Program-made: the position numbers and the translations under genes
NCBI RefSeq assembly: GCF_004917065.1
Contig: NZ_SSYA01000001.1
Coordinates: forward strand, 1,868,161-1,932,160
Direction of reading: 5' to 3'
DNA: 64,000 nucleotides
Origin: Geomonas ferrireducens
GTDB lineage: Bacteria > Desulfobacterota > Desulfuromonadia > Geobacterales > Geobacteraceae
Shown here: positions 40,702 to 58,274 of the stretch, one piece after another
Numbering within the stretch: position 1 is the first letter of the stretch
Layout: each line of letters opens with the position of its first letter
Notes under the pieces: generated by a model
What the model saw: the letters and a program-made list of their open reading frames with translations, nothing else
Told to the model about the DNA's origin: nothing
Database searches by the model: none

Positions 40702-40710
40702 TGGTATAGT
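40702..40710 (+). promoter_or_regulatory. Extended -10 promoter of RNA element 1
   Basis: TGGTATAGT is an extended -10 (TG-n-TATAGT). It aligns with the same position in element 2 (TGTTATGTT). A TTGACA at 40694-40699 is too close to act as its -35. The CAGCTAGCTAGC palindrome falls at the expected transcription start in both elements. Confidence 0.5.
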
Positions 40711-40715
40711 GCTCA

Positions 40716-40910
40716 CAGCTAGCTAGCTGTAACAGAATGTCTCGGAAAAGGAGGTAGCAGTATCGAGGTAAACTCCGCTGAAGAGGATTCTAACTTACAC
40801 ACAGCCTTAAGAGCTCCGATGCCGAAAGCGTCGGAATGACCCCTGTAAAGAGGGGATCGAGTATGACAAAAGAGGCCTAGCTAACTGACAGCAGGCCTCT
40901 TTCCTATTGT
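40716..40910 (+). ncRNA. Structured RNA element 1 (undescribed family candidate), upstream of the DUF3332 gene
   Basis: About 190 bases with no supported frame. In order: palindrome ACAGCTAGCTAGCTGT (40715-40730); core TCTCGGAaAAGGAGGTA (40740-40756); AAACTCC and AGAGGATTCT. Hairpin B follows, CCGATGC-CGAAA-GCGTCGG (40816-40834), then hairpin C, CCCCT-n6-AGGGG (40840-40855), then ATCGAG. The last part is a 10-bp terminator-like stem, AAAGAGGCCT / AGGCCTCTTT (40869-40902). Each part has a counterpart in the same order in element 2. Hairpins B and C show compensatory base changes between the copies. It lies 140 bases before the DUF3332 start, so it may be a cis-acting leader or a separate small RNA. 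It matches none of the common riboswitch classes I can recall. Confidence 0.6.
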
Positions 40911-41041
40911 GACACTTGCAGCCATAGCACCGCCCGGAAATGTTGATGGCAATGATCTGAGCGTGGCTGGCTGATACTATGTATTCCCGGGGAGCGTTCG
41001 GTTTCCGGTGGTACTATCCAATCCGAAAGGGAGGAACACGT

Positions 41042-41575
41042 ATGAAAAGAGTTACAGCGGCGATACTCGCCATGGTTATGGGGATGGTGTCCTTGCAGGG
41101 GTGCTACGGCAAAATGGCACTAACCAAGAAGGTGTACCAGGTGAACGGCCAAGTGGGCGACAAGTTCCTGCGCAGTCTGGTTACCTGGGTCTTCATCATC
41201 GTCCCGGTGTACGGTGTCTCGGCCCTGGTCGACTTCGTGGTCTTCAACACCATCGAGTTCTGGAGCGGCCATAACCCGGTAGCTTCCGGCGAGAAGGACT
41301 TCATGTACAGCGAAAACGGCGAGACCTTCAAGGTGCATGCGAGCAAAAGCGGCGACACGGTACGCTACACGATGAACCATTACCGCGGCGATACCTACCT
41401 GGATACGATGACCATCGACTGGAACGTGAAGAATGGTAACTCGGTGGCGGTGTTGAAGGAAGGTGATGAAGTTACCAAGTACCAGGCTATGCGTATGAAT
41501 GGCGGCGTCCAAGTCACCAGTTCCGGCCCGGGTGCTCTCAGCCGCGGACAACAGGCGTTGGCTCTCTATCAGTAG
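41042..41575 (+). CDS. DUF3332-type lipoprotein
   Basis: A 177-residue protein with a signal peptide and lipobox LQGC. The GCYGKMALTKKVYQVNG opening, a hydrophobic segment LVTWVFIIVPVYGVSALVD and FNTIEFWSGHNPV are typical of DUF3332. Members are small envelope proteins of unknown function. The open frame begins at 40979, but ATG 41042 with GGGAGG eight bases upstream is the start. A weak extended -10 (TGATACTAT, 40972-40980) lies upstream. It is flanked on both sides by the related RNA elements. Confidence 0.75.
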   Translation: MKRVTAAILAMVMGMVSLQGCYGKMALTKKVYQVNGQVGDKFLRSLVTWVFIIVPVYGVSALVDFVVFNTIEFWSGHNPVASGEKDFMYSENGETFKVHASKSGDTVRYTMNHYRGDTYLDTMTIDWNVKNGNSVAVLKEGDEVTKYQAMRMNGGVQVTSSGPGALSRGQQALALYQ

Positions 41576-41693
41576 GTAGTGGTGTTGTCACAAGGGAGGG
41601 GGTGCAGCGCTGGGGAGGGTGGCCGACTGGGCAACTTGAGCAGTATACCTGTAAAAAAAAAATTTCAATAGACTGTTTCTTTGGTCCCGGCGG

Positions 41694-41702
41694 TGTTATG
41701 TT
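41694..41702 (+). promoter_or_regulatory. Extended -10 promoter of RNA element 2
   Basis: TGTTATGTT (TG-n-TATGTT) lies at the same distance from GCTAGCTAGC as the extended -10 of element 1. No clear -35 is present. Confidence 0.45.
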
Positions 41703-41707
41703 TGACT

Positions 41708-41911
41708 CAGCTAGCTAGCCAAGAGTAAAGAAAACAAGAGTAAAGAGGAATCTCGGACAAAGGAGGTAATCAGCATCAAAGAAACTCCACCGCAGAGGAA
41801 TCTCACAACTTGAAGCTGTAACCTCCCGGTGTTCATAACGCCGGCAACACCCTTGAAAAGGGTACCCATCAAGCAGAAAAGTGAGGCCCGCCATAACGGC
41901 GGGCCTTTCAA
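41708..41911 (+). ncRNA. Structured RNA element 2, paralogue of element 1
   Basis: Same layout as element 1. It has GCTAGCTAGC (41710-41719), then an insertion with the 11-mer CAAGAGTAAAG twice (41720-41730, 41735-41745). Core TCTCGGAcAAAGGAGGTA (41751-41768), AAACTCC and AGAGGAATCTC follow. Hairpin B is CCGGTGT-TCATA-ACGCCGG (41826-41844); hairpin C is ACCCT-TGAAA-AGGGT (41849-41863); then ATCAAG. A strong terminator AGGCCCGCC-ATAAC-GGCGGGCCT with T-rich tail (41884-41911) closes it. GGAGGT can also pair with ACCTCC (41821-41826), which would hide an SD-like sequence. The next gene is on the other strand, so this copy has no obvious downstream target. Confidence 0.6.
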
Positions 41912-41957: not shown

Positions 41958-42281
41958 TTAAGGTTTACTCGAACCCTCGGGGACAAAGCGTATTTCCAGA
42001 TGACACCCCACGGCATGGGCATATTTCTTTAGGGTAGACAGAGAAGGCGTATGCTTTCCTGCTGCCTCGAGTCGCGAAATTGCACTTTTAGTAGTCCCCA
42101 TGATTTCAGCAACCGCTTCCTGTGAAAGACCGACCCGCGCACGTGCCGCCAGCATCTCTTTTGCCAGAGCGTATTCTTCATCCAACTCCGCGTATGCTTT
42201 GTTGAAACCTCTTCGCTTCCCTGCCTTTTCAAGCAGATCCTTATGGTCATGGACAACCGGTTCGTATTTCAGATCAGACAT
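41958..42281 (-). CDS. XRE-family (HigA-like) antitoxin or repressor
   Basis: A 107-residue protein with a helix-turn-helix in the second half (LSQEAVAEIMGTTKSAISRLEAAG). HTPSLSTLKKYAHAVG and a short beta-strand end (CHLEIRFVP) follow. This layout is common in HigA-type antitoxins, which usually sit beside a RelE/ParE toxin. No such toxin is here; the gene follows the Abi_2 gene by 20 bases on the same strand, so they may form a pair. AGGAGG precedes the ATG. Base composition is lower in G+C than the core genes. Role as antitoxin is inference. Confidence 0.8.
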   Translation of the reverse strand: MSDLKYEPVVHDHKDLLEKAGKRRGFNKAYAELDEEYALAKEMLAARARVGLSQEAVAEIMGTTKSAISRLEAAGKHTPSLSTLKKYAHAVGCHLEIRFVPEGSSKP

Positions 42282-42301
42282 CTTCTACCTCCTTCAGTTA
42301 G

Positions 42302-43228
42302 CTACAGCTCTTTCCAATCCTTTGGGAACCCCATCGCTGGTGGTGTCACGGCAGGATGATGGGTGAGAAGATCACCCAGCCGCTCCCTCCATTTGTGGCC
42401 GGGGTTCACGATATCCATCAGGTGGCCAAGCATCACCAATGTGTTGTAGATCTTCCTAGGCTCAGCCCTGTTTAAGGAGGGCAGCACATGGGTAGGCCTC
42501 GCTTTAGGTAAGGCCCATGAGATGGTGAACTCGCGGTTCCAGAGCCGGGAGTGGTGAGCGCAAATATTTCTGACCGTGGTGATGTGTTGAAGGAACGAGG
42601 TGAAGATGACTTCATCGATATCGTAGATACGAGAGATAGCGTTGCGGTCACGACTTTTGACGAGGTTTGCGTACCAGAGGGAAAGCTCACCGAAGGTCAT
42701 GATTTCACAGATTACCCAAATCGGGGGGAGGGATAGTTCTGGGTAAGCGGTGCGGTTGTGGCGAATGAAGATCTCAGAGCTTCTGCGGACTACCTGCTGC
42801 AATGATCGGATGCTGTCACCGTGGTTCCACCTCGGAGGGCGCGGCGGCTTAAACAAGCCAGCATCAAGGTGCGCAAGAGGCCCATAGGTATGAGCCAAAT
42901 GGTAAGCCCATTGAGCCCGTAAGGAGACCTCAAACCGTTCGATAGCATCCATGACCCAGAGCCTGAACTCCCGGTCAAAAAAGTATAGTTCAAGAGCGGT
43001 GTCAAAATGTGCCTTTGGTTTGAAAGTGTGAGTTGCATGATCCTGCTCTAGCGGAAGCCAGTAGCCAGACAGTCGGTAATAGTTTAGGTGGGAAAGGAAA
43101 TGGCGGGCGCGGTTGTGGTCGTCAATCTGAAGACCTCGTTGCTGCAGTAGGTCTATTTTCTGCTCATAGGTCAGTGGGGGCTTCTTGAACGGCACGTCGC
43201 GGACCCCTGAAAAAAAGTAACCCCCCAT
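42302..43228 (-). CDS. Abi_2 family (AbiD/AbiF-like) abortive infection protein
   Basis: A 308-residue protein of the Abi_2 family. Features are PLTYEQKIDLLQQRGLQI, the FLSHLNYYRLSGYWLPLE block, RFEVSLRAQWAYHLAHTYG, and near the C-terminus the HEPN-type RxxxxH motif in TVRNICAHHSRLWNRE. Related proteins stop phage growth in Gram-positive hosts, probably as RNases. ATG 43228 or GTG 43195 may be the start. It lies beside tRNA-Thr, with visibly lower G+C than the core genes, so recent transfer is likely. Partner is the XRE gene downstream. Confidence 0.85.
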   Translation of the reverse strand: MGGYFFSGVRDVPFKKPPLTYEQKIDLLQQRGLQIDDHNRARHFLSHLNYYRLSGYWLPLEQDHATHTFKPKAHFDTALELYFFDREFRLWVMDAIERFEVSLRAQWAYHLAHTYGPLAHLDAGLFKPPRPPRWNHGDSIRSLQQVVRRSSEIFIRHNRTAYPELSLPPIWVICEIMTFGELSLWYANLVKSRDRNAISRIYDIDEVIFTSFLQHITTVRNICAHHSRLWNREFTISWALPKARPTHVLPSLNRAEPRKIYNTLVMLGHLMDIVNPGHKWRERLGDLLTHHPAVTPPAMGFPKDWKEL

Positions 43229-43649: not shown

Positions 43650-43725
43650 TGGAGCCGAAGAGCGGACTCGAACCGCCGACTTGCTGATTACGAATCAGCT
43701 ACTCTACCAACTGAGTTACTCCGGC
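43650..43725 (-). tRNA. tRNA-Thr (anticodon CGT), CCA encoded
   Basis: On the minus strand a 76-base tRNA folds fully. It has a 7-bp acceptor stem (GCCGGAG / CTTCGGC with one G-U), a D arm with AGTTGGTAGA, an anticodon stem GCTGA / TCAGC with loop TTCGTAA (anticodon CGT), a T arm with GGTTCGAGTCC, and an encoded TCCA end. CGT reads the Thr codon ACG. A hairpin with T-rich flank follows the 3' end. Confidence 0.97.
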
Positions 43726-58061: not shown

Positions 58062-58091
58062 CCTTGGATCGAAAGGTCGGAGTGCGCGCCG

Positions 58092-58168
58092 CTTCCCTAC
58101 GCCGGTGCTACCCGGATCAGGTTCAAAGGGTTCAGGTCGCCCTGTCTCAGTCCTCGCGAACTCCCCTA
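58092..58168 (-). promoter_or_regulatory. TPP riboswitch (THI element) controlling thiED-thiC
   Basis: On the minus strand the conserved features are in order. These are AGGGGAGT at the start, the GACTGAGA block of the pyrimidine arm, and ACCCTTTGAACCTGATCC. GGTAGCACC and GCGTAGGGAAG follow to close the P1 stem. Bound TPP would favour the terminator downstream and switch off thiamin synthesis. Confidence 0.97.
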
Positions 58169-58274
58169 GCTGGCCTTTTTGCTGCGCGTAAACATAATGG
58201 AATCCTCTTGCAAAGTCAATCGCTTTCGGGTTTTTACCTTTACACTGAATGGCTAAAGTGGTAGAAAAATCACT

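Follow-up and report, generated by a model that had tools for sequence, protein, structure and literature searches.

A structured RNA family of Geobacter-type bacteria with a predicted conserved micro-ORF that mostly begins at AUC or AUA

The two related elements that lie on either side of a DUF3332 gene in the window (the whole 64,000-nucleotide stretch of Geomonas ferrireducens DNA that was analysed) were found to belong to a structured RNA family present across the order and in part of the remaining class. Comparison of the sequences supports the family, its helices and terminators, an ORF within it and a start codon of this ORF that is usually not AUG. The family is real and class-wide, which is more than a preliminary description of the window had held, and the finding also differs from that description in kind, because the family carries what appears to be a conserved micro-ORF that in most members begins at a codon other than AUG. 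Our best reading, which we consider probable, is that the elements are dual-function RNAs or micropeptide mRNAs whose translation would be low and dependent on the fidelity of initiation.

Both copies display, in the same order, an extended -10, CAGCTAGCTAGC at the expected start, AAGGAGG, ACTCC, two hairpins and a terminator (Table 1). Direct reading bore out the two paralogous elements, with the places and motif order first proposed for them, as well as the pairing differences between them: hairpin B has 7 bp and a 5-nt loop in both copies, with pair 4 changed from A-U to G-C, pair 7 from C-G to U-A, and pair 5 being U-G in both, and hairpin C has 5 bp in both, its outer pair being C-G in one and A-U in the other. 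When the folds were compared with those of dinucleotide shuffles, 2 of 200 shuffles were as good as copy 1 and 0 of 200 were as good as copy 2. In the predicted fold of copy 2, GGAGGU is paired with an ACCUCC located past the stop codon. A terminator consensus scan of the + strand reported the copy 2 terminator only, that of copy 1 being absent from the list; neither copy showed a fitting -35, and a sigma-70 scan returned no promoter for them. Many relatives carry CAGGTAGC(GC)TACCTG at the position of the 5' palindrome, with the pairing retained.

Table 1. Positions of the features of the two RNA elements in the window, with the evidence or a remark for each
Feature	Position	Strand	Evidence or remark
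RNA element copy 1, W1 subtype	40716..40903	+	R1 match 40716-40901, 106.8 bits, E 7.3e-27; fold z -2.76
RNA element copy 2, W2 subtype	41708..41911	+	R1 match 41708-41909, 160.7 bits, E 1.5e-41; fold z -4.20
Extended -10, copy 1, TG-G-TATAGT	TATAGT 40705..40710	+	direct reading; alignment columns conserved
Extended -10, copy 2, TG-T-TATGTT	TATGTT 41697..41702	+	direct reading; columns conserved
Upstream boxes, copy 2: GTATAC (41643-41648), A/T tract, AGACTGTTT (41670-41678)	41643..41678	+	
Palindrome CAGCTAGCTAGCTG, copy 1, expected 5' end	40716..40729	+	90.4% of cells paired; double-sided changes in 3/3 pairs
Shine-Dalgarno AAGGAGG, copy 1	40748..40754	+	
Shine-Dalgarno AAGGAGG, copy 2	41760..41766	+	
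Predicted micro-ORF from AUC, copy 1, (I/fM)EVNSAEEDSNLHTALRAPMPKASE stop	40762..40839	+	off-frame relative to Thr-Pro of other members
Predicted micro-ORF, copy 2, (I/fM)KETPPQRNLTT, stop UGA	41775..41813	+	AUC 8 nt past Shine-Dalgarno
Hairpin B, copy 1, CCGATGC/GCGTCGG	40816..40834	+	fold prediction; family covariation
Hairpin B, copy 2, CCGGTGT/ACGCCGG	41826..41844	+	fold prediction; family covariation
Hairpin C, copy 1, CCCCT-GTAAAG-AGGGG	40840..40855	+	fold; family alignment helix
Hairpin C, copy 2, ACCCT-TGAAA-AGGGT	41849..41863	+	fold; family alignment helix
Intrinsic terminator, copy 1	40872..40903, stem 40872-40899	+	fold; family alignment helix
Intrinsic terminator, copy 2	41883..41911, stem 41883-41907	+	fold; alignment helix; terminator scan

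A DNA search of 58 genomes, the window's own included, matched 27 of them, and contig C12 of genome G001 contained an element 100% identical over the 212-base query. Alignment A1, with 28 members, was used to build covariance model R1. In the window's own genome, R1 scored 160.7 and 106.8 bits for the two window copies and 30.3 bits for the next best match, and over 89 sources 101 of 106 matches had at least 42 bits; the five others, at about 32 bits or less, lay on the other strand over terminators. The distinct members collected from the order number 99, both window copies included (a 100-base filler, L129, among the extracted regions was left out). This number and the gap in the scores of the own genome show that the pair of look-alikes is not due to chance. 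Rfam 15 gave nothing at the gathering threshold for either copy, in line with the earlier remark that the pattern could not be matched to the common riboswitch or sRNA classes; at E<=1 there were two sub-threshold matches, both to the 3' part of copy 2 (isrJ, 19.9 vs 37, and Trp_leader, 19.4 vs 41). The only matches above threshold in the window were a TPP riboswitch and a tRNA, both outside the elements, and a scan of 6 further family loci yielded 0 matches. The RNA family matches no listed RNA family.

The covariance-model search proposed in the preliminary description returned many homologues across the order and some in the rest of the class. At E<1e-7 (about 39 bits or more, tallied by eye from the genome tables), the family was seen in 128 of 141 order genomes and in 45 of 136 other genomes of the class, the strict filters of these searches losing weak members. 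Outside the class it was seen at this threshold in 0 of about 378 genomes (from a phylum sample of 395; best value there 4.3e-6), a count in which unlisted misses were assigned outside the class by list order. The looser tallies at E<=0.001 (134/141, 42/395 and 227/277) make the family look more widespread than it is, as a lone terminator can score about 30 bits. When 40 of the 45 class genomes were searched again, 40/40 matched. Several genomes have two or more full-length copies, some of them close together, and the window's genome has only two. Two loci, L019 (terminators at 121, 1105 and 1649) and L032, hold three family members in tandem, which suggests local duplication; the middle member of L019 has UUA at the start position of the others.

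The results from two alignments showed that both hairpins and the terminator co-vary, as expected for a structured RNA family under selection on pairing, and the selection that had been proposed from the two copies is thereby extended to the family. In A2, whose 103 distinct rows were aligned to the model and are hence biased toward it, 95.4% of the cells are paired, 13 of 17 pairs are changed on both sides, and 0/500 shuffles reach any of the observed measures; its 5' palindrome shows swaps between G-C and C-G with pairing kept. In A3 (79 rows, plain MAFFT, with the structure taken from one row), the paired cells amount to 83.3% in hairpin B, 85.9% in hairpin C and 98.9% in the terminator, with double changes in 6/6, 4/4 and 6/10 pairs, respectively; at its inner end hairpin B has a seventh pair, which is kept in 36.7% only. 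Run unaided on A1, RNAalifold recovered hairpin B, the terminator and part of the palindrome but not hairpin C, and its covariation term was small.

Two further helices were considered and rejected. For a helix between the Shine-Dalgarno and the CUCC within the ORF, 59 members gave 3.98 bp vs 3.99 bp in synonymous shuffles; in A3 it was 80.7% paired but had only 2 double-change cells, and the actual partners paired hardly better than permuted ones (z -1.68). A helix of the sequence after the Shine-Dalgarno with the stretch before hairpin B reaches -15.2 kcal/mol in copy 2 but does not extend to the family as a whole (z -1.76; of 79 members, 7 fall within the best 5%; control region z -2.65). 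A family-wide helix sequestering the Shine-Dalgarno was looked for in these pairing tests, and none was shown.

AAGGAGG reads as a Shine-Dalgarno and ACTCC as Thr-Pro codons of the micro-ORF, which in copy 2 would be AUC-AAA-GAA-ACU-CCA-CCG-CAG-AGG-AAU-CUC-ACA-ACU-UGA and in a distant member ATG-GAA-GAA-ACT-CCG-CCA-GGC-TGC-AAA-CCA-CAA-TAG. Among 126 members the codon at the start position is AUC in 75, AUG in 24, AUA in 22 and another in 5, a tally that is not blind, since the rule for picking starts seeks listed codons near the Shine-Dalgarno and slightly prefers AUC, AUA and AUG. Within the order (97 of the 99 members; L019:1-148, with its 5' end cut off, and L019:958-1132, with UUA at the start position, were dropped) there are 47 AUC, 24 AUG, 22 AUA, 2 AUU, 1 ACG and 1 GUG. 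Outside the order (29 of 30 loci; L249, whose sequence shows ATC, was dropped as the slice missed the element) there are 28 AUC and 1 CUC. In 126 nearest-neighbour comparisons, the pairs of start codons are AUC-AUC in 63 cases, AUA-AUA in 19, AUG-AUG in 15, AUA-AUC in 12 and AUA-AUG in 8; none is AUC-AUG. The non-AUG start is not absolute, as 24/97 order members have AUG and AUA and AUG are neighbours in 8/126 comparisons. Of the 101 non-AUG members, 23 have an in-frame ATG, GTG or TTG further upstream in the transcript; by eye, these codons precede or overlap the Shine-Dalgarno or are within a few nt of it.

Thr-Pro codons are present in 64 of the 95 members scored, where the start follows the Shine-Dalgarno by 5-13 nt, most commonly 8 (26/64), and the ORF is 8-34 codons long; longer ORFs occur in a few of the remaining members. 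Frequent predicted peptides are I/M-E-E/D-T-P-P-G in the order and I-D-N-K-P-D-H and I-E-D-x-x-x-Q-L outside it.

We performed two tests of coding. The first was anchored only on the Shine-Dalgarno and AUN-GA, which 65 of the 99 members have. Stops in codons 2-9 were found in 1/65 members in frame 0 and in 15/65 and 13/65 in the other frames; for the AUC and AUA members, the counts were 0/53 vs 13/53 and 12/53. Variability at codon positions 1, 2 and 3 was 0.31, 0.28 and 0.43 for AUC, 0.28, 0.23 and 0.43 for AUA, and 0.11, 0.06 and 0.30 for AUG members, and the synonymous share of single-base codon differences was 0.47 vs 0.31 and 0.08 in the other frames. The second test used 66 members picked for their Thr-Pro codons, a choice by which four positions are conserved; here the synonymous share was 0.63 vs 0.16 and 0.08 (AUC/AUA/AUU part: 0.55 vs 0.16 and 0.09), and codon -2, which was not selected, had variabilities of 0.11, 0.11 and 0.38. 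Shuffles of column order were as high as observed in 2/500 cases for all members, 2/500 for AUG members and 30/500, a modest result, for the AUC/AUA/AUU part. Outside the order one group gave 0.31 vs 0.09 and 0.18, a moderate signal, and another 0.16 vs 0.14 and 0.25. The open frame and the variable third positions support coding within the order, and moderately at most outside it. A conserved small ORF, the mark of dual-function small RNAs, is thus predicted within the order, and the earlier statement that a conserved peptide was unlikely was not supported: past the start codon the frame remains open, with the greatest variation at third positions.

That statement had been based on a one-base difference in spacing around the ACTCC motif. 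In most members this difference lies between Shine-Dalgarno and start, where it is immaterial; for copy 1 alone the argument was right, as this copy is truly frame-shifted. In its subtype, seen in the window's genus, the AUC frame is off by one base relative to Thr-Pro, and a 25-codon frame is open in 10/10 distinct sequences found. The codon statistics gave 0.295 for the AUC frame vs 0.383 and 0.179, another frame being higher, in a test that included one normal-frame sequence. Copy 2 is therefore the better example; copy 1 may be drifting, being re-coded or acting as RNA only.

The same sequences could belong to a purely non-coding small RNA, in which AAGGAGG and CUCC(ACC) are motifs at the RNA level, the CUCC pairing, for example, with the Shine-Dalgarno of its own RNA or of mRNAs that it targets, and the open frame would be incidental. 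This would explain why the Thr codon is ACU in 61/64 Thr-Pro members, a uniformity that the third positions of the adjacent Pro codons do not reach, why CUCC is kept also in some Ala variants and occurs in another frame in the copy 1 subtype, and why CTCC is found 8-34 nt past the Shine-Dalgarno in 64/86 members with a full Shine-Dalgarno. Against this, variation in the acidic and Pro codons is greatest at the third position, none of the 53 AUC and AUA members has an early stop, and the pairing of Shine-Dalgarno and ORF did not exceed that of the shuffles or clearly that of permuted partners (values above). We regard a purely non-coding role as unlikely.

IF3 discriminates against AUC, AUA and AUU as start codons, as known for E. 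coli infC and pcnB. In the RNA family, AUU, AUC or AUA stands behind a strong Shine-Dalgarno in 99/126 members. We read infC in 30 of the 58 matched genomes, from sequence and not from annotation (L181, L183-L211, own genome included), and found an in-frame AUA 6-7 nt past GGAGG or GGGGG in 30/30; gene callers limited to ATG, GTG and TTG would put the infC start elsewhere. Because of this, it is very likely that translation can start at AUA in the Geobacter-type group if a strong Shine-Dalgarno precedes it, and inefficient, IF3-checked initiation fits what is seen there. According to the available text of PMC13009471, S. aureus infC starts with AUA, three such starts give about 10% of AUG expression in poor medium, and AUA and AUU starts directed by an extended Shine-Dalgarno, infC included, provide a precedent. 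The family resembles infC and pcnB (AUU/AUA) and S. aureus infC, ccpN, citZ and cvfC1 in its strong or extended Shine-Dalgarno, in a near-cognate AUN that lowers initiation and in the expected discrimination by IF3, and it differs from these ordinary protein genes in that the start lies in a micro-ORF within a structured RNA that is conserved throughout a bacterial class; the codon AUC has 0 occurrences in the main text of that article (PMC13009471).

We infer that the elements are transcribed, that AUC and AUA are translated in dependence on IF3, and that the RNA has a dual coding and RNA function, with selection on the AUC and AUA members for weak, conditional initiation. Each element would be a stand-alone small RNA gene with its own promoter, a structured transcript of ~190 nt and its own terminator. 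30S subunits would load on AAGGAGG, and IF3 would proofread against AUC or AUA, so that initiation would be rare and would depend on conditions such as IF3 level and growth state, as expected for the AUA-start infC. At low initiation the transcript would remain a structured RNA; at higher initiation it would yield a short peptide, in many order members resembling fMet-acidic-acidic-Thr-Pro-Pro-Gly, and the ribosomes would stop before or inside hairpin B. A more specific, tentative proposal is that these RNA genes gauge the fidelity of initiation, acting as structured RNA if IF3 rejects AUC or AUA and as peptide mRNA otherwise, the codon being kept by selection.

A near-ideal Shine-Dalgarno and spacing, combined with a codon known to be rejected by IF3, might also serve as a decoy that holds 30S initiation complexes unproductively, the peptide being incidental; with the peptide frame conserved and AUG present in some members, we find this most unlikely. 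Pro-Pro-Gly is an EF-P-dependent motif, and the ORF might be of an arrest type, making ribosomes EF-P-dependent and the RNA a reporter of EF-P or proline status. Thr-Pro-Pro-Gly is indeed frequent in the order, GGC following Pro-Pro in 32 Thr-Pro members, but copy-2-type members of the window's genus have TPPI or TPPQ, others have ATPE, VSPE or no Pro pair, and 25/29 predicted peptides outside the order are without Pro-Pro, which makes such a role very unlikely.

The probable reading, a dual-function RNA or micropeptide mRNA, treats the element as a gene of its own, and its genomic context bears on whether it could instead be a cis-acting leader or attenuator of the next gene. We examined 81 order elements with ORFs called by a custom script. 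The terminator lies at the 3' end of the element, copy 1 ends about 140 bases ahead of the DUF3332 gene (PF11810, E 2e-42), and 37 of the 41 same-strand downstream genes (37 of all 81 elements) are within 300 nt, so that read-through into them is possible. The nearest downstream gene, however, is on the same strand in 41 cases and on the opposite strand in 40 (upstream: 52 and 29), and a scan of 113 of the 162 flanking proteins gave FKBP as the most frequent Pfam domain with 9, followed by Dus with 5 (best 25 of 93 families). Thus, consistent placement ahead of related genes and on their strand was not found, shared neighbours are not a trait of the family, and the flanking of a DUF3332 gene, correct for the window, is not a family property. 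The strand balance and the lack of common neighbours led us to reject a riboswitch or leader of the DUF3332 gene, and to a leader or attenuator in general we give very little credence.

Upstream of the elements, the pattern TATAC-N15..23-AGACTGTTT had 9 matches in 8/20 genomes, all 9 shortly upstream of family members, vs 1 match for a reversed-pattern control. Under loose definitions, 58 and 63 of 98 order members carry the two boxes, against 0 and 4 of 30 slices from outside the order, one of these misplaced; being near absent there, the box pair belongs to the order and not to the whole family. It looks like a putative activator site dedicated to these RNA genes.

The elements share several GGA motifs (3-7 per element in the first 33 members counted), hairpins and a terminator with CsrB, CsrC and RsmZ, and could be thought to titrate CsrA in the same manner. 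Three CsrA-type sRNAs are predicted for G. sulfurreducens in the available text of PMC5568370, a prediction taken up in that of PMC11934962, and none of them is characterised according to that of PMC13407953. Unlike the setting of CsrB, CsrC and RsmZ, csrA was not found in most order genomes: it was above cut-off in 15/138 (16 at E<=0.001), vs 128/141 for the RNA, and was not found in the window's genome, which is 100% complete and has two RNA copies. A CsrA sponge is for this reason excluded as the general role, and we attach next to no probability to it. The distribution of csrA in the order is patchy, with 3/19 genomes of the window's own genus group having it.

Dual-function small RNAs include SgrS/SgrT, SR1/SR1P and RNAIII, which are not known to start with codons other than AUG or GUG. 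Like them, the family would consist of short transcripts that end at an intrinsic terminator, have a conserved structure and contain a small ORF; unlike them, AUC and AUA dominate in the Geobacter-type family. To our knowledge there is no comparable class-wide conserved non-AUG micro-ORF. A structured-RNA screen of 50 genomes, a Geobacter genome among them, described uORF/sORF motifs that likewise combine a structured element, a Shine-Dalgarno and a short ORF found by comparative genomics, whereas our family has no tie to a downstream gene and a conserved start that is mostly not AUG (PMC11109978, main text). The literature matches listed, in their available text, described neither the RNA family nor a conserved micro-ORF that starts with AUC. 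The family may overlap with an unnamed sRNA or sORF candidate already in print, for example with one of PMC11109978, which was compared by its main text; G. soli sRNAs are given by coordinates in the available text of PMC6013743, and a study of peptides from sRNAs considered AUG starts only, as its available text states (PMC5521070).

Genes with so short an ORF and a start codon off the usual list are prone to be overlooked by gene finders and in sRNA screens. If the AUC or AUA start is used, a micro-ORF with a non-AUG start would be conserved across a whole bacterial class and would offer a natural system for asking what is gained by low, IF3-gated initiation. The hosts are the metal-reducing, current-producing Geobacter group, in which regulation by small RNAs is little explored, and with only two full-length copies in the window's genome, direct deletion or re-coding is feasible.

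Two observations concern the surroundings of copy 2 and the remainder of the window. A gene for an HTH_3 regulator and an Abi_2 (abortive-infection-like) gene lie at 41958-43228 on the minus strand, between copy 2 and a tRNA gene at 43653-43725. In the relatives L008, L010, L011 and L018 a tRNA end is found close behind the RNA terminator, so that the HTH_3/Abi_2 segment looks like an inserted defence-type module. The TPP riboswitch of the window (RF00059, 70.3 bits) is at 58077-58177 on the minus strand.
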